IMG/VR virus record: IMGVR_UViG_3300009164_000323
Coordinates: 1 to 25,715 of that record
Source: a virus
Length of the DNA: 25,715 nucleotides
Reading direction: 5' to 3' (one strand)
Positions within the stretch are counted from its first letter, which is position 1; every line of letters begins with the position of its first letter. The notes beneath the pieces are model-generated. The model saw only the letters and a list, made by a program, of their open reading frames with translations, was not told the DNA's origin and searched no databases. The translations under genes and the position numbers were made by a program. Below are positions 13,424-25,361 of the stretch, in pieces.

Positions 13424-13579
13424 ATGGATATCCTCATGTTCCTAGCTGTGTATTTCGCAGGATTCTTCACTGCTGTAAATATATTCGGAACTCTCATCTA
13501 CTGGAAAGAGATCAAGGCATGGGTATCAAACATCAAAGAGCGTATACACTGCCAGTGGATTCTCTGGAAATATAGATGA
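13424..13579 (+). CDS. Small membrane protein (51 aa)
   Basis: The ATG at 13424 directly follows the upstream stop; an in-frame ATG at 13391 would add 11 charged residues inside the preceding gene and is less likely. Residues 3-26 are strongly hydrophobic (ILMFLAVYFAGFFTAVNIFG), then Trp- and Lys-rich. The stop overlaps the next start (ATGA at 13576). It is probably co-transcribed with the 93-aa gene and the oxygenase pair. Function unknown. Confidence 0.6.
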   Translation: MDILMFLAVYFAGFFTAVNIFGTLIYWKEIKAWVSNIKERIHCQWILWKYR

Positions 13580-14322
13580 TACCAGGAGTTAGACTAACGA
13601 CTGCTCAGAAGATGAAGTTTGCCAAGCTGTCTGCAAACGTGGAAACCATATCTGATTACATGTCTATATTCAGACAACTGGAGTATCAAGAACTTACACA
13701 ATACTTTAGGATGACGAATAGTAGCTGGCCCGAACGAGAAGGAGAGTTCAGGACTGTCGGTAATATAGGAATCGAAAAAGATTATTACGAGAAACACATA
13801 TTAACTCAGACTCCTCCGGCAATAGAAGAGCTCAATCTAAACGATGAAGTGAAACTACTTAGTGGAAATCATATATCTAGCCACATGGAATATGATTTAA
13901 GCGATATTAAACAACGAATCTTAGAAAAGTTTGGATTGATGGAATGCGAAGTAGCATTACATGATCAACCGCCTGGCGGTGTGCATGTGTGGCATTATGA
14001 CAGCATGCTACGATACTATGAATCTATCTGGTTACCCGCTGATCCTGCTCGCGGTAAACTCAAGTTGAATAAACAAACGCAATGGGCCGATGACGGAACT
14101 ATGCCTATTAGATTATTCGTATCACTAAAAGATTGGCATTACGGACAGATATTCCAATTTGGTAGTAAATTATGGCAGGGATGGCAAGCAGGAGATGTGA
14201 TCTGGTTTGAATGGCAGAATCTTCCTCATGCTACTGCTAATGCAAGCATGTTTAATCGACCGATCGTTCGAGTCACTGGATTGATATCGTTATCCGATGA
14301 AAAGCACAATATGCTCCGGTAA
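13576..14322 (+). CDS. 2OG-Fe(II) oxygenase-like protein (tandem paralogue 1)
   Basis: 248 residues. An iron facial triad can be read as His140-x-Asp142 (WHYD) and His218 (LPHATAN), with Arg228 or Arg232 (RPIVRV) placed to bind 2-oxoglutarate. The core is a beta-helix-like pattern with IFQFGSKLWQGWQAGDVIWFEW before the distal His. The N-terminus shares TTAQKMKFA and the phrase TNSxWPxREG with the next gene, so the two are paralogues. Phage members of this superfamily are common in marine T4-like genomes; substrates are usually unknown (protein, nucleic acid or small molecule). The start is in ATGA overlap with the small membrane gene. Confidence 0.75.
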   Translation: MIPGVRLTTAQKMKFAKLSANVETISDYMSIFRQLEYQELTQYFRMTNSSWPEREGEFRTVGNIGIEKDYYEKHILTQTPPAIEELNLNDEVKLLSGNHISSHMEYDLSDIKQRILEKFGLMECEVALHDQPPGGVHVWHYDSMLRYYESIWLPADPARGKLKLNKQTQWADDGTMPIRLFVSLKDWHYGQIFQFGSKLWQGWQAGDVIWFEWQNLPHATANASMFNRPIVRVTGLISLSDEKHNMLR

Positions 14323-14327
14323 ATATC
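14320..14327 (+). promoter_or_regulatory. TAAATATC box 5 nt before a start codon (site 2)
   Basis: TAAATATC at 14320-14327; TAAATA ends 5 nt before the ATG at 14331. It includes the stop codon of the upstream gene. No ribosome-binding site is seen. Confidence 0.4.
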
Positions 14328-14330
14328 GGC

Positions 14331-15080
14331 ATGACGCACATGATTCCTGCTCCCACAACAGCACAGAAGATAAAATTCGCTCGATATGATTCTGTAGAAA
14401 CCATCAAAGATTATATGGATTTCTTAGACGGGTTAGAGTCTAGAGTAGCAGATCAGATATTCCGTCAGACTAATTCCGGATGGCCAGATCGTGAAGGATA
14501 TTTTGGTAAGGTTGCTGAATTACCTATCCATGATGGATTCTTCGAATCTAATATATTGCCTGTGTCCAAGGAAAGGACTCCTACGCCGTTAGTGTGGGAT
14601 CAAGAGTATCTATGTGGACAACAGAACGCATCTCCTATCGAATATAATCTTAAAGAGATAGCAGATATGGTAGTAGATGCTTTCGATATAGAGGAACCTT
14701 TCGTACAGCTCAGCTGTCAGAAACCTGGTATGGTTCATGCTTTCCATTTTGACGATCTCAAGACTTATTATAAAGGTATATGGACCGAAAATGATCCCAG
14801 CAGGAAAGAGTTCAAGTTTAATAGACAAACACTATGGGCCGAGATGGATGATAGATTTGCTATCAAGTTCATGATACCTCTGACCGATTGGCGTTACGGA
14901 CATATATTCCAATTTGGTATGAAGTATTGGGATAACTGGCGTGCCGGTGATGTAGTGATATTCGATTGGCAGAACTTACCGCATGGCACAGCTAACGCTA
15001 GCTTCTATGATAGACCGATGGTGAGGGTGTCTGCGATAGCAAGATATTCTGATCCTCGCCACGATATATTCCGGACATAA
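14331..15080 (+). CDS. 2OG-Fe(II) oxygenase-like protein (tandem paralogue 2)
   Basis: 249 residues, aligned with its neighbour along its length. His139-x-Asp141 (FHFD), His218 (LPHGTAN) and Arg228/Arg232 (RPMVRV) keep the iron and 2-oxoglutarate residues in the same positions. Shared landmarks are TTAQKIKFA, TNSGWPDREG and the IFQFG...W.AGDV...F.WQNLPH run. Both copies seem intact, so they may act on different substrates or as a heteromer. An alternative start at 14340 (MIPAP) exists; 14331 is favoured by its 5-nt distance from the TAAATATC box. The stop is followed by a hairpin belonging to the opposite strand. Confidence 0.75.
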   Translation: MTHMIPAPTTAQKIKFARYDSVETIKDYMDFLDGLESRVADQIFRQTNSGWPDREGYFGKVAELPIHDGFFESNILPVSKERTPTPLVWDQEYLCGQQNASPIEYNLKEIADMVVDAFDIEEPFVQLSCQKPGMVHAFHFDDLKTYYKGIWTENDPSRKEFKFNRQTLWAEMDDRFAIKFMIPLTDWRYGHIFQFGMKYWDNWRAGDVVIFDWQNLPHGTANASFYDRPMVRVSAIARYSDPRHDIFRT

Positions 15081-15106
15081 AAAAAGCTGTGCAATTTGCA
15101 CAGCTT
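15079..15106 (-). terminator. Rho-independent terminator of the minus-strand transporter operon
   Basis: AAGCTGTGCA (15084-15093) and TGCACAGCTT (15097-15106) form a 10-bp stem with a 3-nt loop. Read on the minus strand it is followed by seven T residues (15079-15085). It lies just after the tctC-like stop, and overlaps the stop of the convergent + strand oxygenase. Confidence 0.9.
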
Positions 15107-15112
15107 ATGAGC

Positions 15113-15991
15113 TTATCGCTTGTAAGTATTCCATAAATTTCGATCCGTCTCTAATACTTCTTGGATCTTGTCATCGGGTATCAACACTGTACTGTCATTC
15201 CACGCTCTACGCTTGCGAAGCTCTACCCACGCATCTTCTCTCCATATGTCTGCTGCATCCTTACGCAGCTTGCTCATCTGATCAGGATTGAATCCCTTAG
15301 CAATGAACCAATTACCGGTAGTAATTAACATCAGAGGATTCTTAGGCATGATATCCTTGCCCAATGCATATCCTGGAACTTGAATGTGTCCTGTGATCCA
15401 GAAACACTTAGCACCTAACTGTAGTTCTACCCACGGACCGTTAGAGATGATGAAATCCAACTCGCCTGCCTTAGCACTAGCTGCGAGCTCGCTAGTCACA
15501 CGGAACTGTAACAGCTTAGCCTTGATTCCAAACTCTTTGTTGAAGGATTCGACCAATGAATTCTCTGGCATGTTGTTGGTGCCACCGATGATATGTGTCG
15601 ATCCAGGCTTGATAAAATCTTCCCACGTCTTACCGTTTGCCTTGCTGTTACAGAAATAGATAGGATTGCTGTTCGCATACAGCACGAAGTTATCCTTAGT
15701 AGTCTGTACATCGCAATCAGGCTGAATGTTAGTGTTGATCATCGTGTCTCGATACATGATCACAGGACCTGTTGAAGTGTCCCACGTGCTCTTACTGAGG
15801 CTACAGTTGTTCAATGCTCGAAAATCGATCTTGTATCCGCGCTTGTTGAGACCTTCAGCTAAGATCTGGCTCATGCCGGCACTAGTACCACCAGGACCGG
15901 GATAGATGTGCATCGGAATCTCTTGTGCGACACTATTGCCCAGCAATGCTAGTGTCATGATACCGACAGTGATCAGTCTATTGAAATTCAT
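15113..15991 (-). CDS. TctC/Bug-type periplasmic substrate-binding protein
   Basis: 292 residues. A clear signal peptide is present (basic start, hydrophobic ITVGIMTLALLGNS, cleavage near SVA-QE). YPGPGGTSAGMSQILAEGLNKRG is the TctC/Bug opening (Y-x-PGG-x(2)D/S with the following helix). IIGGTNNMPENSLVESFNKEFG and KAGELDFIISNGPWVELQ are typical mid-domain segments. The size is normal for the family (about 300). It would bind a carboxylate or similar small solute in the periplasm for the neighbouring TctA-like permease, encoded 13 nt upstream in the same transcript. The ribosome site GGAGAG precedes the ATG. The ligand cannot be predicted. Confidence 0.85.
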   Translation of the reverse strand: MNFNRLITVGIMTLALLGNSVAQEIPMHIYPGPGGTSAGMSQILAEGLNKRGYKIDFRALNNCSLSKSTWDTSTGPVIMYRDTMINTNIQPDCDVQTTKDNFVLYANSNPIYFCNSKANGKTWEDFIKPGSTHIIGGTNNMPENSLVESFNKEFGIKAKLLQFRVTSELAASAKAGELDFIISNGPWVELQLGAKCFWITGHIQVPGYALGKDIMPKNPLMLITTGNWFIAKGFNPDQMSKLRKDAADIWREDAWVELRKRRAWNDSTVLIPDDKIQEVLETDRNLWNTYKR

Positions 15992-16004
15992 ATGTGTCTC
16001 TCCA

Positions 16005-17318
16005 TCAGAAATAAAGTGTTAACATCCTAACTATAGCAGGTTCTAATCGATCTTGCAATAAGAAAACGAATATGAAAGGCATCTTATCTTGGTTGCGTAA
16101 CAGCAGTCCGATCGTTGAGAACACTGCTAACACTATGATGTAATATAGCCCCTGACCATAGCTGTATCCAATCTTGAACACGGTATAGGTGCAGATAGCA
16201 GTCAGTATCCAAGGTGTGTATCTGCCCAACTTGTATAGGTTCTTTATCACTGCACCAGCTAGGTTCCAGCTGAGAAAGAAACTGATGATGTTAGCTATGA
16301 TCAACCATGCTGCTACAGTCTCGAATATCGGCTTGACCGTGATCCAGTTTAACACATGTGCAGATGTGTTGGTTATCTCTAGCAATAGATTCTCACTAGG
16401 TTGGATAGCAATGCCGTATATCAACACTGGCAGCAACACGCTGATCCCTGCTGCATTAGTTGCAGTCTCAGCAGCAGTCGCTTGTCTCAGAGATGAATTC
16501 TTTAACCAGCGTTCGACATAGAATGCGATATATGCGCTGACGTCAATGCCCACATAGGGAATGAGTCCTGCGAAGAATCCGATCCAACTTCCTCGAATCA
16601 TCGAGAAGACATTATCCTTTATCAGTTTCAGCTTGTTGACTAGCTTCCTATTAAAATCGATAGCAGCAGAAGCTGCACCATCCAATGAATCGATGGATTT
16701 CACGATGTTTGGTATCGCATACATGCCCAGCAACACGCTGATCACAGGTAATCCGCCACTGAGCCACATATTGCCGAACGTGAGGAAATGCTCCTTGCTG
16801 TAAGGATCTATTCCTATCTTGCTGAGCGTCCACCCAGCGGGTATCATCAACAGTGTCATCCACCAACGATTATCGCTGAACACGGAACACATGATGAGTC
16901 CGATAGCACTGAATCCGATCATCACGTAGACACGGAGATAGTCAGTATTGGTTGCAATGAAATCGATGATCAGATAGCTGAGCACGAACGTGCTGATAGC
17001 GCCTACAAAATGACCAAACGCACACAGGAACAGTGCTTCCAGTTGGTTATCTTCGCGTATGATGTCGTCTCGTATCCGCAGCAATGGTATGCTGTTCGTC
17101 TCGCCTGGCAATCCTACTGCTAATGCAGTGATGCTACCGCCAAACTGACAAGCACTTACCATGGAGCAGTAGAATATCAATATCAACACTAGCGGCAGTT
17201 TCATGAGGAAAGTAAATGCCAGGATCATGAACACTGACACTCCTATTCCCGGTAGAAGTCCTGCGATGAATCCAGCGGAGACTCCTGCTAAGCAGGCTAT
17301 TAGATGTTCTATTCCCAT
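16005..17318 (-). CDS. TctA-type permease of the tripartite tricarboxylate transporter
   Basis: 437 residues with about ten to twelve hydrophobic segments. Residues near 16-30 carry AGFIAGLLPGIGVSVFM, the first signature (GLLPGIG). A second, related segment near 260 (FFAGLIPYVGIDVSAYIAF) reflects the internal duplication of TctA. TAAETATNAAGISVLLPVLIYGI is the conserved post-duplication block. It is shorter than bacterial TctA (about 500). Its start shares a base with the stop of the PP-loop gene (TGATG). TctA is the large membrane subunit; the small TctB subunit is not in this window, so either the host supplies TctB or the phage pair works without it. Confidence 0.85.
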   Translation of the reverse strand: MGIEHLIACLAGVSAGFIAGLLPGIGVSVFMILAFTFLMKLPLVLILIFYCSMVSACQFGGSITALAVGLPGETNSIPLLRIRDDIIREDNQLEALFLCAFGHFVGAISTFVLSYLIIDFIATNTDYLRVYVMIGFSAIGLIMCSVFSDNRWWMTLLMIPAGWTLSKIGIDPYSKEHFLTFGNMWLSGGLPVISVLLGMYAIPNIVKSIDSLDGAASAAIDFNRKLVNKLKLIKDNVFSMIRGSWIGFFAGLIPYVGIDVSAYIAFYVERWLKNSSLRQATAAETATNAAGISVLLPVLIYGIAIQPSENLLLEITNTSAHVLNWITVKPIFETVAAWLIIANIISFFLSWNLAGAVIKNLYKLGRYTPWILTAICTYTVFKIGYSYGQGLYYIIVLAVFSTIGLLLRNQDKMPFIFVFLLQDRLEPAIVRMLTLYF

Positions 17319-18556
17319 CAGTCGCTTTCTAATTCTTCTTCTGTATGATACCAGATGTAGTGCTTCGGACTGCTCAGTGTTGGAAAACCGCTGTGCCAGA
17401 ACGACATGCTATGAGCATACAATGGTTTGACAGTTTTGTAAAGCTCAAATATGCCTCTGGTCCAGTTCTTGAAGAATTCGGTATTGCGATCTCGGACTGA
17501 CCAATCGCTACAAGGCTTCCAGGGCGTGCTGTTGGTCAGATGCATGCCGGGAACATCCTTGATGCTCTTGAGACCATGATAAGGTCTGGGTAGGAAACGA
17601 GGACCATACAGTATCTTACCGAGCACATCTTCGTGTATCCGACTGAAGCACAATTCTTCGCTCTGTGCTAATATAGGATCTCCTGCTTGTCTTGCTTTCC
17701 GTATCATGTGCGCTTGTTTAAGCTGCATCTTGATAGTAGTAGGATCCCAATAGAACAGTTCTACCCACTGTGGAAGTCCTGGTTCTAATGCTCTAGGCAA
17801 TACATGGTCCTGATGATTCGTCTCGCCATAGCGCATGAAATACCCTATCTCATCTCGGAACACGCCGGGCTTCTCTTTGCCTATAATGTGTCCGACACGC
17901 TTTCCTTTCTCAGTCATCACTCGCCAAGGACGATGAAGCAGATCATAGTCTGTCCTGGGCAGAGCAAATGGATCGATGCTGGCAGTGTGTCTCTTCTCGA
18001 ACCATTTTGGATCCGATTCGATCATCTTCAGCAATGTATCTGTTGTATCAGCAAAAGTGATTTCGACATCGGGCCAATAGTTACCTTTGATATATTTTGC
18101 TACCGGCAGTGCTAGATTGTGGGGTTCTAAGCATTCCATATCGGTTGCTACGTTCTGTTTCTCGAACTCGGATCTAGCAGTGTTCACAGAACCTGCATGA
18201 TACCGTATGAATAGTTGATCTATCTTCAGTCCTGCTCTGATGAAAGTCTGTGCAATGTTTCCGCTGTCATCGCCACCGCTGAAATGCAAAACGAGGTAAT
18301 CATAATCGTTACGAAGCTGTCTAGCTCTTTGAGCGTACAGTTCGAATATATCTTCCTCGGGTTCTTTAGTTAGATCGACTGCAGCTAGTTCTTTCTCAAA
18401 TATGTGCCAAGTCAGTTCTTGCCCAGACTTGATGCTATCCTGGAATGCTTCTAGCTTGTTGAAATATTCTCTATCTCCAACTCGATACACACCGACCTTG
18501 TGTACGTTTGTGTTTATTATCCTGGGATCGTTGATTAATGACAAGTCAGGCTCCAC
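17318..18556 (-). CDS. PP-loop ATP pyrophosphatase-like protein
   Basis: 412 residues starting at GTG 18556, which overlaps the end of the radical SAM gene by 11 nt; no ATG fits as well. LVLHFSGGDDSGNIAQTFI contains the PP-loop SGGxDS at residues 93-98. Such loops bind ATP in N-type pyrophosphatases (asparagine synthetase, PAPS reductase, tRNA-thiolation and QueC-like enzymes), which activate a carboxylate or carbonyl as an adenylate. The rest (about 300 residues) has no family landmark I recognise. It lies between a radical SAM protein and the TctA/TctC pair, all overlapping, which suggests one pathway. QueC, TilS and MnmA are unlikely given the length and context. Confidence 0.75.
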   Translation of the reverse strand: MEPDLSLINDPRIINTNVHKVGVYRVGDREYFNKLEAFQDSIKSGQELTWHIFEKELAAVDLTKEPEEDIFELYAQRARQLRNDYDYLVLHFSGGDDSGNIAQTFIRAGLKIDQLFIRYHAGSVNTARSEFEKQNVATDMECLEPHNLALPVAKYIKGNYWPDVEITFADTTDTLLKMIESDPKWFEKRHTASIDPFALPRTDYDLLHRPWRVMTEKGKRVGHIIGKEKPGVFRDEIGYFMRYGETNHQDHVLPRALEPGLPQWVELFYWDPTTIKMQLKQAHMIRKARQAGDPILAQSEELCFSRIHEDVLGKILYGPRFLPRPYHGLKSIKDVPGMHLTNSTPWKPCSDWSVRDRNTEFFKNWTRGIFELYKTVKPLYAHSMSFWHSGFPTLSSPKHYIWYHTEEELESD

Positions 18557-19850
18557 AATGTCTCTGAAGCAATGACCAAAGATCTGGCAGAGTGGAGCGC
18601 CAATCAGTCTTTCGAGTCCTATCTAGATAATCCATCAATCTAATAAATTTGTCTATCATAACAGGATCTTCCGGCCAATCTAGCCTACCTTCGAGAAATT
18701 TGTTCAATGCTACCACTCTCGGAGAATCTACTGATCGATTAAACTCGACGATCTCTTGCTTGGCAGATCTTGGTAACGAATCTATGCTCATGTATTCGGG
18801 AGAATATATCCATCGATATACTACGTTAGGACTATTCTTGTTATTGATTCTCCAGTGTTCTATCTCTGGTACACTAAAGATGTTTGGAAGCATGTAGCAA
18901 ACGCTGGTTCCCCAGAAATATATATGGTCCTGGTTCATTACTATATCGAGGTTCTTCTCGAACGTTTCCCACTTTCCCCCATAACGTATCAGCTCGTAAC
19001 GATGACCAACATCATCCATGCTACCTGACAGTCCTACACGTTTGAAATGCTTCCATCTCTCTATCAATTTTGGATTGACTACGCTGAGGTTGCTTGCTGG
19101 CCATAGCGTTATGTTCTTAGCAACATCGTGTTCGATGAAGAAGTCTAGGACCTTATCGTGGTCCTGCATGATGAAAGGTTCGCCGCCTAATATGGCTACG
19201 TCGATTAGATCGTCCTTGATCTCGTTCAATATCTTCCAAAAGTTCTCTGATTTGACATAAGGATCGAAGTTTGCTTTTAGCTTACCGTTGTCATTCCTCG
19301 TCAGCGTCCATTTGGTAGATAGATCACCGCCGGGTCCCTTATGGAAGTCTGGACCGAAGAATCCGTTATAATCTTCATACCATAACGTGCTTTCGGCTGG
19401 GCTACAATGCAAGCAGGCGTAGTTACAGAGATTTCCAAAACGTAGATCAAGCGTCTGTATCTTGACTTTGTCTATATAACCAGTGACTGGATCAGCGGAT
19501 CTTATCAGTCTTGCTATCTCTTGATCTTCTGGAACTCTTCTCTGCAGGTTCTTCATCATGCCTGCGGGATTGGTCTTAATGTCCTTGCAGTTAACGCAGT
19601 GTTTATGCCACTTGCCCTGTAACTGATGTAATCTAATATCTTTATGTAGATCGCTGTTTAACACATCTTGTAATACAGCACCCTTGCCTATGTTATACCT
19701 GTCGCTGTTACCGAGATAACCTTGGGTAGATCTATCTTCGCACTGTTCGCGACAGACTACCATCTCTCCGGTATTCTTCGTGGATATCTCGCTCCAAGGA
19801 TAGCTACAGAATACATCCTTGATGTCCTGGTATTTAGGTTTCTTTTCCAT
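18546..19850 (-). CDS. Radical SAM protein with N-terminal twitch/SPASM-like segment (1)
   Basis: 434 residues from the ATG at 19850; an extended frame to 19985 would run through tRNA-Val and is rejected. The CxxxCxxC motif is Cys142, Cys146, Cys149 (GNLCNYACLHC). GGEP at 222-225 binds SAM. Before the core lie Cys15 (FCSYPW), Cys33 and Cys37 (VVCREQC) and Cys85/Cys88 (HCVNC), with a G-N near residue 48. This resembles the SPASM/twitch auxiliary cluster region, but placed at the N-terminus. Such enzymes modify peptides or small molecules by radical chemistry. It is the first protein gene of an operon headed by tRNA-Val 20 nt upstream; no ribosome site is seen in that gap. Confidence 0.85.
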   Translation of the reverse strand: MEKKPKYQDIKDVFCSYPWSEISTKNTGEMVVCREQCEDRSTQGYLGNSDRYNIGKGAVLQDVLNSDLHKDIRLHQLQGKWHKHCVNCKDIKTNPAGMMKNLQRRVPEDQEIARLIRSADPVTGYIDKVKIQTLDLRFGNLCNYACLHCSPAESTLWYEDYNGFFGPDFHKGPGGDLSTKWTLTRNDNGKLKANFDPYVKSENFWKILNEIKDDLIDVAILGGEPFIMQDHDKVLDFFIEHDVAKNITLWPASNLSVVNPKLIERWKHFKRVGLSGSMDDVGHRYELIRYGGKWETFEKNLDIVMNQDHIYFWGTSVCYMLPNIFSVPEIEHWRINNKNSPNVVYRWIYSPEYMSIDSLPRSAKQEIVEFNRSVDSPRVVALNKFLEGRLDWPEDPVMIDKFIRLMDYLDRTRKTDWRSTLPDLWSLLQRHCGA

Positions 19851-19870
19851 ATTGTAGTTATCTGAGAAAA

Positions 19871-19945
19871 TGGTGGGTGATGAGAGATTCGAACTCCCGA
19901 CAACTGCTGTGTAAAAGCAGGGCTCTACCGCTGAGCTAATCACCC
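19871..19945 (-). tRNA. tRNA-Val (anticodon UAC)
   Basis: A complete cloverleaf. The 7-bp acceptor is GGGTGAT with ATCACCC, the D arm is normal, the anticodon stem CTGCT/AGCAG has loop TTTACAC (UAC), and TTCGAAT is the T loop. The discriminator is A and CCA is encoded (plus-strand TGG at 19871-19873). It sits alone between two divergent radical SAM genes, 20 nt before the start of one. Its 5' end is 8 nt past the -10 box. Confidence 0.95.
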
Positions 19946-20001: not shown

Positions 20002-21222
20002 ATGGAACCTTTACAGTGCAAGTTGGCTGAGCTAAGCCTAAACCTCGATATGAGCGGCCAGATGAGTTGCTGCAATCTAAACAATCTCTATCTCAAGGAT
20101 GAGCTAGGAAACACCCTTAGGTTAGATAAGGACAGCGTTCGATCTGCTTGGACCAGTCCTACACGTCGCAAGCTATTAGGAACTCTCGAGAAAGGCATAC
20201 CTCATCCTTACTGCAGAGCATGTTGGAACATGGAAGCAGTGGGCAGCAAGAGCATACGCCAGCACTATAACACGCTGTTAGCGGATGTAGAGCCTCTACC
20301 ATCCCAACCTCGCATCATGATCATCAAGCACGGCAACAAGTGCAACAGCGCATGTCGTAGCTGTAGCGCACACAGTAGCACGCTCTGGTACAAGGATGCT
20401 TATGCTATGGAAGAGACTGATGTGCCTTATAAGGTATGGCTCAAGCAATGGCGCAGCCATGAGGAGAGCTATAACGATAATCAGGATCTCAAGGAGACAC
20501 TGGCAGAGTGGAGCGAGGGCATCGTGTTCTTCGATCTGTATGGGGGGGAGCCGTTGTTGCATCCGTTGACCTACGATATCGTAGATCATGCTGTCACGTC
20601 AGGACATGCAGCAAACCAGGACATTCAGATGCATATCAACGGCACGATATGGAATGATAAGCTGGTGGAGCAGTTGAAACAATATAAATCAGTTAGCATA
20701 GGCTACAGTGTAGATGCCGTAGGCGGGCGTAACGATTATATCAGGATGGGTAGCAAGTGGGATGTAGTATTGTCTAACCTAGAACGCTGGTTAGAGGTAG
20801 CTAGGAATCATCCTAACTTCAGTGTATCCATCAAATGCACAGGCATGAGCCATAACGTGTACTACCTAGGTGAGACGTTTGATTTCTTCAGTCGCATGGA
20901 TGTTCCTATGTATTTCACTAATCGTGTGACTGATGTAGACAAGCGTGAAGCTAACATGATGTATCTTCCCGAATTTGCGAAGCAAGCAGTCATAGACAAG
21001 TTAATGTCGTACGAACCATTGCCTAAGTATAAGGATCTATGGGAAGATCAGAGAGATTGTACCATACGCTTCATCAGCAAGAAGCCTACCGATCACGACA
21101 CGTTTGTTGATAGTTTCTGGATACGCAATCGCAAGCTGGATCTAATGCGTAGGCAAGACTATGGTAAGGTATTTCCGGAATTCAATGTTATATTGGAAGA
21201 TCATTATGTTGGTGCCCAATGA
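20002..21222 (+). CDS. Radical SAM protein with N-terminal twitch/SPASM-like segment (2)
   Basis: 406 residues. Cys114, Cys118, Cys121 (GNKCNSACRSC) form the radical SAM motif and GGEP at 181-184 the SAM-binding part. N-terminal cysteines Cys23/Cys24 (GQMSCC) and Cys71/Cys74 (YCRACW) with a G-N near 37 repeat the plan of the divergent paralogue. LEKGIPHPYCRACWNMEAVG resembles the corresponding twitch part. It is divergent from the tRNA-Val operon. The last four codons and TGA 21220-21222 lie inside the antisense 3' end of tRNA-Thr, so the tRNA sequence supplies the stop. The two paralogues look substantially diverged. Substrate unknown. Confidence 0.85.
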   Translation: MEPLQCKLAELSLNLDMSGQMSCCNLNNLYLKDELGNTLRLDKDSVRSAWTSPTRRKLLGTLEKGIPHPYCRACWNMEAVGSKSIRQHYNTLLADVEPLPSQPRIMIIKHGNKCNSACRSCSAHSSTLWYKDAYAMEETDVPYKVWLKQWRSHEESYNDNQDLKETLAEWSEGIVFFDLYGGEPLLHPLTYDIVDHAVTSGHAANQDIQMHINGTIWNDKLVEQLKQYKSVSIGYSVDAVGGRNDYIRMGSKWDVVLSNLERWLEVARNHPNFSVSIKCTGMSHNVYYLGETFDFFSRMDVPMYFTNRVTDVDKREANMMYLPEFAKQAVIDKLMSYEPLPKYKDLWEDQRDCTIRFISKKPTDHDTFVDSFWIRNRKLDLMRRQDYGKVFPEFNVILEDHYVGAQ

Positions 21223-22242: not shown

Positions 22243-22270
22243 ATAATAGCACAGTATCAGAATATGTCAA
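22243..22270 (-). promoter_or_regulatory. Promoter of tRNA-His inside the end of the iron permease gene
   Basis: On the minus strand TTGACA (22265-22270) and TATTAT (22243-22248) are 16 nt apart, with 8 nt to the tRNA 5' end. The -35 box is made of the last permease codons. Confidence 0.8.
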
Positions 22271-22859
22271 TACCATAGATCTCTAATGTCTCTGTGACCC
22301 CGTGCCATAGATAGTAAGCGGCCATTGCCAATAACACGAATCCAACATAGCGGAACATGATCCGGCTGGTCATGCCCTTACCAATGCGCTCGTAAGCATA
22401 AAGTACAGCCGCTAGCACAGGGACACCTGCAGCGAGTCCGATGATCACTCCCGTGGGATCTGTCTTGATGTTAGATCCAAGGAACACTGTGGACTCTAAT
22501 GCTTCACGCAGCACGATGAGAAACACTGTTAGGTGTATGGTCCATATGCTGCTGTCCTTCACTTCGTTAGCATGCTCCTTCGCATGATCAAAGATCGCTC
22601 GACTGTTAAAGAAGATATAGATCAGCACGAATGCAGTGACTATCTTGAACATGTTCTCGATGTGCTCCATCCACGGCCATATCGCGTCCAGCACGAACCA
22701 GCCTGCAGCCAGCGTCAGCACCCATGTCGCTACGAAGTTGAAATTGATATGGTTCTTGTATTCCTTAGGGAGAGCAGAAACAATCATGCCTGTGAGCAAC
22801 AAGCTCTCGAAGCCTTCTCGAACTAATACAAGTGCAGTGCTGGTGACGGTGCTTAACAT
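22257..22859 (-). CDS. FTR1/EfeU-type high-affinity iron permease
   Basis: 200 residues with about six to seven hydrophobic segments. The two hallmark iron-path motifs of the FTR1/Fip1/EfeU family are both present: REGFE at 14-18 and REALE at 118-122, each in a membrane helix (LVLVREGFESLL; FLIVLREALEST). Spacing by about 104 residues reflects the ancestral duplication. The protein is shorter than bacterial EfeU (about 270-280) because the C-terminal part is reduced. In the family, these Glu residues guide Fe(III)/Fe(II) across the inner membrane, with EfeO and EfeB as partners; neither partner is in this window. The ATG follows AAGGAA. tRNA-Arg lies 20 nt upstream in the same transcript; the end overlaps the tRNA-His promoter. 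Confidence 0.9.
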   Translation of the reverse strand: MLSTVTSTALVLVREGFESLLLTGMIVSALPKEYKNHINFNFVATWVLTLAAGWFVLDAIWPWMEHIENMFKIVTAFVLIYIFFNSRAIFDHAKEHANEVKDSSIWTIHLTVFLIVLREALESTVFLGSNIKTDPTGVIIGLAAGVPVLAAVLYAYERIGKGMTSRIMFRYVGFVLLAMAAYYLWHGVTETLEIYGIDIF

Positions 22860-22996: not shown

Positions 22997-23013
22997 TATC
23001 CTGTAACAGGATA
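22997..23013. promoter_or_regulatory. 17-bp palindrome upstream of the duplicated glycosyltransferase gene
   Basis: TATCCTGT (22997-23004) and ACAGGATA (23006-23013) are perfect 8-bp arms around one base. It lies between the tRNA-Arg promoter and the TAAATATC box of the next gene, a typical operator position. Confidence 0.5.
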
Positions 23014-23026
23014 TGATTGGTCGAGT

Positions 23027-23034
23027 TAAATATC
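23027..23034 (+). promoter_or_regulatory. TAAATATC box 4 nt before a start codon (site 4)
   Basis: TAAATA ends 4 nt before the ATG at 23037. It supports 23037 as the start rather than the in-frame ATG at 23013, which lies inside the palindrome. Confidence 0.4.
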
Positions 23035-23036
23035 GG

Positions 23037-25361
23037 ATGATTTTACCCTGTAAAGAGAACAAGATCGAACATAATCTAGTGTTCTTCGATCATCCAGAAC
23101 ACGTTAGTCGAGATCACCTGGTAGATCAACAGATATTGTTAGATCCTCGAAAGATGTATCTAAGATTTGAAACAATCTGTCAACACGTCGATATCAGCAG
23201 ATATTTCCTGTTCGTCGTGCATTTCAGAAACGATTTCCGGGACTTTCCTTATGATTACATCGATCGATATCGTAAGCATGCAGTTGCACATGATCTAATA
23301 TTTCGAATAGTGATGTTTGAACCAGGAGAAGCTCCTACCTATCGTTGGGATATGAGACAGGTAGTTGATACGCTTGTATCTTCTTATGCATTGGATCGCT
23401 ATGCTATCATATTCATGAGTGGTGCTCAACACCAGTTTTCCGATCCGTTCATCAATAGCATATGTTATGATGCTATAGGTTTTGAGGACATGTGGAAATC
23501 TATTAGACCTTGGCGTATACCTACGCATCATTATATTAGTCTAGCTCGCAGGGCTAAACCACACAGGATAGTTGCTACCGTAGAGATGCTTGATCGACGG
23601 CTGGACAATTTTGGTCACATGAGCTTAGGAGCTGCAGGTGATAATGCCTGCGAACCTAGATTTAGATATCTCATACCCGACCGATATCTAGATAGATTTC
23701 CTATTAGGCTAGATCACGATAACGTGACTGATGATCTGATGTATGATACGACAGATGATCGTATCACTGATGCGTTTGTTAATGTGATAATGGAAACCAG
23801 CTTCGAGCGAGATCCTTGGAATAACGAAACTTGGAACGTGCCATTCATGACAGAGAAAACCAGCAAGGCTTTCCTTCTAAGACAAGTGCCGATCATGATA
23901 TCTCATCGGTATTCCTTGACTTTCCTCAGAGAACATGGATTCGATCTGTTCGATGATATCATCGATCATAGTTACGACAACGAGGCTAGACCGGAAACCA
24001 GGATAAAGATGGCTATAGATCAATTACAGATCATATGCAGCAAGGACATCACGCATTGGCAGGATTATAAGATCGCTAATCAACACAGATTCGATAAAAA
24101 CAATAATATCATGCAGTCGATGATATTAGATAGAGATCTAAATTCTGCTCGCAACCTTAGCAAGGCATTGACATACTCAAATTCTACAACAGTTTATAAT
24201 ATAGATCATCGTACGATGAATTCTGTATGGTTAGAAACAGGTTGCTATCGCAATGATCAATATGGTTATGTCAATCAAGTCTTAGAACAATGTGATATCA
24301 GCAGATTCTTTCTATTCATTATTGATCAAAACGGGCTCGTCGGCGATGGTGTATTTCCAGAAGAACTACTTAAAGAATATCAGAGACATGCTGAGCATAA
24401 TAATCTCATCTTCGTCGTCGTGTTCGTAAATCTACAGGAAGCGCCTACATATCCTCATACATTCAAACCGATGGTAGATAGCATATCTCAGAGATATAAC
24501 ATACCGTTAGAAAGAATGATCATCTTCGGTGGCGCACAGCATCAGTTTGATACCCCTATACAGAACGCACTTACTCTTAAGGTTGCAGCCAAACCGTATC
24601 TATGGATCGATTCGAATCCATACAATGATCACGCACAACATAGCAATCAGCCCACACATCATTTCATAAGCCTAGCGAGACATCCTAAGTTCCATAGGAT
24701 AGCTGCCACTGTAGAGATATTGGATAGAGGATTACAGGATCTGGGATACATGAGCTTGGGCAGCACGGAGAACAGGTATTTCTGGGAAAATCTAAGCGCC
24801 GTCCCTGCGCGATATCACCCACTCGTGCCTATGATCTTGGATCATCAGGATGTACAGGAACAGGACATATACGGTAGCACGGATGATCGGATGGTGAGAG
24901 CATTTGTGAATCTAGTGATGGAGAGTGCATACGAACCTAGACCTTGGGGGCAAGGCTTATGGAACGTGCCGTTCATGACGGAGAAAACCATGAAGCCTTT
25001 CATATGGGGACAGGTTCCTGTGTTCGTAGCACATCAGCATAGCTTAAAATTCTTGAGGGATTGGGGGTTTGATCTATTCGAGGACATCGTGGATCATAGC
25101 TATGACTGCGATCCCGATTCAGCTGGTCGAGTAGTGTTAGCGATAGATCAGCTAGAAAAGATATGCAAGATGCCGATAGAACATTGGCAGCAGTATAAGA
25201 CAGATAACATGCATAGATTCAATCACAATGCTGATATGGCTCGAAAGGTCATGCATGAGCAGGAGCTGGTAGCGATACCTAATTTTAGGAAAGCATTAGA
25301 ATTGGCTGGAGGACAGAGACTCGAACCTCAGACATCCAGAGCCTGGCGTTCTACCAACTGA
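23037..25361 (+). CDS. Large internally duplicated glycosyltransferase-like protein
   Basis: 774 residues in two homologous halves of about 380. Landmarks recur in order in both: DISR(Y/F)FLF, EAPTY, GAQHQF, (Y/F)ISLARxxKxHRI(V/A)ATVE, (H/Y)MSLG, DDRxxxAFVNxxME, WNVPFMTEKT.K.F, LxFLRxxGFDLF, IxDHSYD and a HWQxYK end. The EKT-x-K-x(3)-GxxP(V/I) plus GF-x-LF and DHSYD layout is that of a phage C-terminal glycosyltransferase domain with a conserved TEKT box. So it is probably a gene fusion after tandem duplication. The first half keeps TEKTSKAF and the second TEKTMKPF. The last about 19 codons and the TGA (25359-25361) are read from a degenerate tRNA-Gln on the opposite strand, so the original C-terminus was probably altered. 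Substrate unknown. Confidence 0.75.
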   Translation: MILPCKENKIEHNLVFFDHPEHVSRDHLVDQQILLDPRKMYLRFETICQHVDISRYFLFVVHFRNDFRDFPYDYIDRYRKHAVAHDLIFRIVMFEPGEAPTYRWDMRQVVDTLVSSYALDRYAIIFMSGAQHQFSDPFINSICYDAIGFEDMWKSIRPWRIPTHHYISLARRAKPHRIVATVEMLDRRLDNFGHMSLGAAGDNACEPRFRYLIPDRYLDRFPIRLDHDNVTDDLMYDTTDDRITDAFVNVIMETSFERDPWNNETWNVPFMTEKTSKAFLLRQVPIMISHRYSLTFLREHGFDLFDDIIDHSYDNEARPETRIKMAIDQLQIICSKDITHWQDYKIANQHRFDKNNNIMQSMILDRDLNSARNLSKALTYSNSTTVYNIDHRTMNSVWLETGCYRNDQYGYVNQVLEQCDISRFFLFIIDQNGLVGDGVFPEELLKEYQRHAEHNNLIFVVVFVNLQEAPTYPHTFKPMVDSISQRYNIPLERMIIFGGAQHQFDTPIQNALTLKVAAKPYLWIDSNPYNDHAQHSNQPTHHFISLARHPKFHRIAATVEILDRGLQDLGYMSLGSTENRYFWENLSAVPARYHPLVPMILDHQDVQEQDIYGSTDDRMVRAFVNLVMESAYEPRPWGQGLWNVPFMTEKTMKPFIWGQVPVFVAHQHSLKFLRDWGFDLFEDIVDHSYDCDPDSAGRVVLAIDQLEKICKMPIEHWQQYKTDNMHRFNHNADMARKVMHEQELVAIPNFRKALELAGGQRLEPQTSRAWRSTN

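Follow-up and report, generated by a model that had tools for sequence, protein, structure and literature searches.

The IMG/VR virus record IMGVR_UViG_3300009164_000323, whose entire 25,715 bases are referred to here as the window, covers part of the genome of an uncultured T4-like phage and has T4-type genes for a single-strand-binding protein, UvsX and UvsY, and eight tRNA genes (found with ARAGORN). On its minus strand the gene of a PP-loop ATPase is directly followed by those of TctA and TctC, the permease subunit and the periplasmic solute-binding protein of the tripartite tricarboxylate transporter (TTT). This association of PP-loop with TctC/TctA is a recurrent phage module, linked above chance in independent phage contigs. 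Its best explanation, to which we assign a probability of roughly one in two, is a phage-borne module for carboxylate uptake and ATP-dependent activation.

Linkage was evaluated in 66 independent PP-loop groups (clustered at 80% identity) collected without regard to TctA, and chance was estimated by repositioning the PP-loop gene at random inside the same loci (301 permutations). In 27 of the 66 groups the gene next to PP-loop is TctC or TctA – compared with 3.7 expected and a permutation maximum of 9 – and in 37 groups one of them lies at most four genes away (13.0 expected, maximum 22). Adjoining pairs are on one strand in 25 of 29 instances, and most overlap or are separated by gaps of less than about 30 nt. 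TctC is present in 45 of 80 PP-loop loci, and neither TctA nor TctC in any of 80 loci (850 kb) around related UvsX genes. Members with an adjacent TctC are spread throughout the PP-loop tree, and for adjoining PP-loop and TctC proteins the two sets of pairwise distances are correlated (Mantel r 0.49, p 2e-4). TctC is a far commoner partner than TctA, with most PP-loop loci carrying TctC but not TctA.

A first-pass annotation of the window had proposed that four families – a twitch-domain radical SAM enzyme, the PP-loop ATPase, TctA and TctC – form one system, and had set beforehand, as its refutation, that they rarely occur together elsewhere. The neighbourhood counts contradict such rarity for PP-loop with TctC/TctA, and this part of the proposal stands; the radical SAM part does not, there being no enrichment of these genes beside PP-loop (3 adjoining versus 2.4 expected; 5 of 68 within three genes versus 5.7 expected). 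Being no more frequent than by chance, the radical SAM gene was rejected as a core member, and is read as a local addition to the module, not a constant partner.

The arrangement within the window is compact. All four open reading frames (ORFs) are present on the minus strand, and recomputed coordinates agree with the spacings given at first pass: an 11-nt overlap of the radical SAM and PP-loop genes (18546-18556), a 1-nt overlap of PP-loop and TctA (17318), and a 13-nt gap between TctA and TctC (15992-16004). The radical SAM gene (18546-19850, 434 aa) encodes a protein of the N_Twi_rSAM family (NF033640, 7.8e-77; 259 bits against a cut-off of 170) with CX3CX2C at residue 142, and is probably co-transcribed with the others because it is co-directional with and overlaps the PP-loop gene. 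A tRNA-Val (TAC) gene predicted by ARAGORN (19871-19945, minus strand) heads the transcription unit; the first-pass annotation extended the unit to 19945, which takes in this tRNA gene, and the radical SAM gene itself starts at the ATG at 19850. The suggestion of one promoter and one terminator is consistent with prediction from the sequence: a good promoter-like site (TTGACA-N16-TATTAT, with a TG before the second hexamer in the manner of an extended -10; 11 of 12 matches in a computational consensus scan) lies at 19981-19954 on the minus strand, upstream of the tRNA-Val and radical SAM genes and so of the whole operon, and a terminator-like hairpin with a T-run, found by sequence scan (15084-15106, minus strand), lies 3' of TctC and would close it. 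Because the region as a whole has about as many promoter- and terminator-like sites as chance predicts, these two elements weigh by quality and placement only.

The PP-loop protein (17318-18556, minus strand, 412 aa, GTG start) has an SGGDDS motif at residues 93-98, after the strand YDYLVLHF. Enzymes with SGGxDS loops usually activate their substrates by adenylation. Among 62 relatives S93, G95 and D97 are invariant, and the family has conserved residues of its own, including Y74, R77, R82, Y85, E144 and K280-Q281. No Pfam, PHROGs or NCBIfam family was matched, either by the protein alone or through the 62 relatives. Weak matches to QueC, PAPS reductase, ATP_bind_3 and MnmA-type models come from single relatives, the window protein itself matching none of these, and weak alignments of P0003 to IbrA-like proteins were taken as superfamily-level only. 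The family resembles the PP-loop superfamily (AsnB, QueC, NAD synthetase, PAPS-reductase-like) in its loop and in scattered weak matches, and differs from it in its own conserved residues, in having no curated family and in being nearly confined to uncultured phages. A seven-member query set recovered 371 relatives from the IMG/VR viral collection, as against one in 84,980 prokaryotic species genomes, on a metagenome-bin contig of 3.2 kb, and none was found in 50,697 GenBank phages with three different members as queries. The family is accordingly almost restricted to phages, and those phages are all uncultured. INPHARED phages gave no PP-loop, P0004 or TctC relative.

The identity of TctA (16005-17318, minus strand, 437 aa) is certain from its match to PF01970 (167.7 bits, gathering cut-off 28.9, E 4.2e-49), and the protein is a short phage form. 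TctA proteins of the TTT family have the motif G-x3-G-x3-G-x2-P-G-x-G in transmembrane helices 1 and 7 (TM1 and TM7; PMC5812351); in the window protein the TM1 copy is exact (GVSAGFIAGLLPGIG, residue 12), and the TM7 copy (GSWIGFFAGLIPYVG, residue 243) has one residue changed. A plain hydropathy scan gave eight clear hydrophobic segments, about 12 transmembrane helices being typical of TctA. The best relatives, which are on plasmids, are only 26-28% identical, and in the tree the protein groups with the TctA of another phage contig, L145 (support 99/99); on identity and grouping together, a recent transfer from a bacterium was rejected.

The TctC call (15113-15991, minus strand, 292 aa) was the weakest of the identity assignments, and the protein is a distant member of its family. 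It has no Pfam match even at E 10, and was recognized by a hidden Markov model of phage TctC proteins (E 1.3e-6) and by profile comparison with hhalign (97%); the closest relative found is in L145 (12504-13361). Its N-terminus has a hydrophobic, signal-like segment, as do 48 of 49 TctC proteins, and nearly all PP-loop proteins have none, which is consistent with TctC being a receptor in the periplasm and PP-loop an enzyme of the cytosol. No TctB ORF occurs between or beside the operon genes of the window.

Similar cassettes occur in other contigs, which are read as phage because a terminase large-subunit gene lies close to the cassette of L145, and the record of L206 has a gp23 capsid gene, as do large records. 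TctA–PP-loop pairs were found in the window, L145, L166/L171 and L206/L208. L145 has the order PP-loop, TctA, TctC and, directly 3' of TctC, an oxygenase-like gene related to the one convergent with TctC in the window; its TctA and TctC are the closest relatives found of the window proteins, and its PP-loop protein belongs to the same small clade with moderate support (80). The order is TctC-like, TctA, PP-loop in L166/L171 and PP-loop, TctA, TctC-like, DctP in L206/L208, with weak TctC-like calls in both (E 0.0009 to 0.013). In L103 the genes run PP-loop, AsnS-like PP-loop, Rieske, TctC, TctB, TctA, radical SAM, PP-loop and ATP-grasp, so that TctC, TctB and TctA (with PF03401, PF07331 and PF01970 matches) stand between two PP-loop genes; other phage contigs, L106 among them, have TctB as well. 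When viral contigs were scanned with TctA, PP-loop or radical SAM as single-protein queries, or with one DNA pattern, nothing was found because the proteins are too divergent and alignments are needed. A TctA alignment scan of the same material gave 32 loci, including homologues of the window PP-loop protein in L102/L103, L106 and L111, and two further PP-loop homologues came from searching long records of related phages. TctA was absent from the 43 related phage records searched, and TctA-like places in INPHARED were rejected as distant only, in records read as bacterial or as unannotated faecal sequence.

In the proposed mechanism, TctC would be secreted to the host periplasm and bind a small carboxylate, which TctA would move inward with or without the TctB of the host. 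In the cytosol the PP-loop enzyme would adenylate the imported acid at the expense of ATP, so that it could undergo amidation, ligation or the like, and the activated acid would feed a phage product; the probably co-transcribed radical SAM enzyme may alter this molecule or a different one. Bacterial TctC proteins are mostly orphans with no membrane partner nearby (PMC5812351), and phages with only TctC and PP-loop might borrow the host TctAB, as is thought for the bacterial orphans. We suggest more tentatively that several phage lineages use a TTT binding protein of their own to capture an environmental acid that a PP-loop synthetase turns into a phage-specific product – a decoration, a cofactor or a counter-defence metabolite – often by way of the host TctAB.

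Phage-encoded uptake is already known, and what is new here is its being built around an undescribed PP-loop enzyme family. The closest parallel for the transport genes is bacterial TctABC (BctCBA and the Bug proteins of Bordetella): the window TctA exceeds the Pfam cut-off and retains the glycine motif of TM1, the window TctC is a distant member with a signal-like N-terminus, and both are in one operon. In contrast to TctABC, the set is phage-encoded, lacks TctB, has a TctA of only 437 aa, and has a PP-loop partner in place of a catabolic enzyme or regulator. Cyanophage pstS genes similarly supply a periplasmic binding protein for host uptake, whereas here the binding protein is tied genetically to a dedicated cytosolic ATP-using enzyme and sometimes to its own permease. 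The first-pass annotation knew of no phage pathway with this set, and literature searches agree, giving only a tctA domain match on a putative SUP05 virus contig (PMC4164917); that is a lone match, presented with neither neighbourhood analysis nor a PP-loop link, and with its role stated there to be unknown. Both radical SAM proteins of the window exceed the cut-off of N_Twi_rSAM, a family of unassigned function and not a conserved partner of the module.

Other explanations of the cassette can be weighed against these data. TctA and TctC might simply let the host take up more carboxylate as a source of energy or carbon, with PP-loop present for operon convenience. Phage contigs L119-L123, L126 and L133 have TctB-TctA without a PP-loop neighbour, so that TTT import is of use to phages on its own; moreover, phage transporter genes including pstS are already known (PMC6359870). 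We nonetheless consider general nutrient scavenging rather unlikely, since PP-loop and TctC are neighbours about seven times as often as by chance, in tight coupling and across the PP-loop tree, and since PP-loop pairs with the binding protein far more often than with the permease. A specialization of the uptake-and-activation module, rather than its opposite, is a small-molecule or surface-glycan pathway in which PP-loop attaches the imported acid to a sugar, lipid or nucleotide, and oxygenases, radical SAM enzymes, ATP-grasp and carbamoyltransferase act as tailoring enzymes. The neighbourhood of the PP-loop gene is enriched in families of ATP-grasp (p about 0.014), oxygenase-like (p about 0.04), nitronate-monooxygenase-like, DctP and other PP-loop proteins, a hint of a broader pathway that varies from phage to phage; a carbamoyltransferase is encoded farther along L145, and the window also codes for an aminotransferase, a nucleotide-sugar epimerase and a glycosyltransferase. 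The tailoring genes differ from locus to locus, however, with no fixed pathway seen, and in this specific form the explanation is doubtful.

A role in pyridine salvage for nicotinamide adenine dinucleotide (NAD) would have TctC bind quinolinate or nicotinate, and an N-type PP-loop enzyme amidate or activate it, countering NAD-depleting defence. NAD synthetase is itself an SGGxDS PP-loop enzyme, which counts for this idea. So does the nanomolar affinity for quinolinate of two Bordetella TctC proteins, Bug27 and Bug69 (PMC11452294), and quinolinate is by analogy one candidate substrate. Against it, no NAD-pathway gene is among the enriched neighbours and no match of the PP-loop family to NAD synthetase models was found, leaving salvage improbable. 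Chance clustering of unrelated insertions might be expected of huge-phage genomes, which hold many loosely ordered metabolic genes, but is contradicted for PP-loop with TctC/TctA by the within-locus permutations and by the recurring PP-loop–TctA–TctC order; it is very improbable as an account of the module, and stands for the radical SAM gene.

Several observations also weigh against an uptake-and-activation module. The low identity of the window TctA, together with its altered TM7 residue, makes its transport activity less than certain; the window is without TctB; TctA occurs in only a minority of PP-loop loci; and 32 of the 66 PP-loop genes in the tree are more than two genes away from any TctC/TctA. 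Part of the Mantel correlation may stem from phylogenetic signal or shared phage ancestry. No relative whose structure (in the PDB) or function is known was detectable for the PP-loop protein, and AlphaFold single-sequence models were of no use (predicted local distance difference test scores of 36 and 34).

The surroundings of the operon fit the description at first pass. A second N_Twi_rSAM gene (20002-21222, plus strand; NF033640, 8e-68, 229 bits) is divergent from it, and a gene for a 2-oxoglutarate/Fe(II)-oxygenase-like protein with an HxD...H...R sequence pattern (14331-15080, plus strand) is convergent with TctC, preceded by one for a paralogue (13576-14322, plus strand). The pattern is matched by P0006 and P0008, with HYD and a distal H/R discernible by eye in P0007, and makes the proposed nearby iron-dependent oxygenases plausible. 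Relatives of the two adjoining paralogues (13576-15080) are near TctA in L106, L110, L112-L114 and L145. Farther along the window are an iron permease FTR1/EfeU-like gene between tRNA genes (22257-22859; PF03239, 42.4 bits) and a gene for a 782-aa protein resembling a tandem duplication (23013-25361), each half with a motif like MTEKT-K-FL-QVP-SL-FLR-GFDLF-DI-DHSYD, and with relatives near TctA in other contigs.

Related contigs show further variations. L145 (4494-15566) contains three PP-loop family genes, two of TctC, and one each of TctA, ATP-grasp, oxygenase-like and carbamoyltransferase type beside the terminase, and the single operon of L103 (5837-15335), whose radical SAM protein has a weak B12-binding match, resembles a small-molecule pathway. 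TctB-like genes directly 5' of TctA in L106, L107-L109 and L118 encode proteins of only 62-67 aa, roughly half as long as usual, and L112-L114 and L110, which are one phage group with no PP-loop neighbour, have a divergent TctC-like gene (~352 aa) directly 5' of a 478-aa TctA. DctP-type (TRAP) solute-binding proteins are encoded in L136 (7978-8931), L128 (11443-12396), L206 (7299-8237) and others, near TctC/PP-loop genes above chance and with a PF03480 match of 3.9e-46 in one; because none of 14 distinct proteins has a signal-like N-terminus, they may be cytosolic carboxylate binders.

The PP-loop family is not named by standard libraries in spite of at least 371 occurrences in viral contigs, and its linkage to TctC/TctA supplies a functional partner. 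If the uptake-and-activation module is real, the TctC ligand would offer a direct route to the substrate of the PP-loop enzyme, and phages would be recruiting a chosen outside compound for chemistry of their own, beyond boosting the nutrition of the host.

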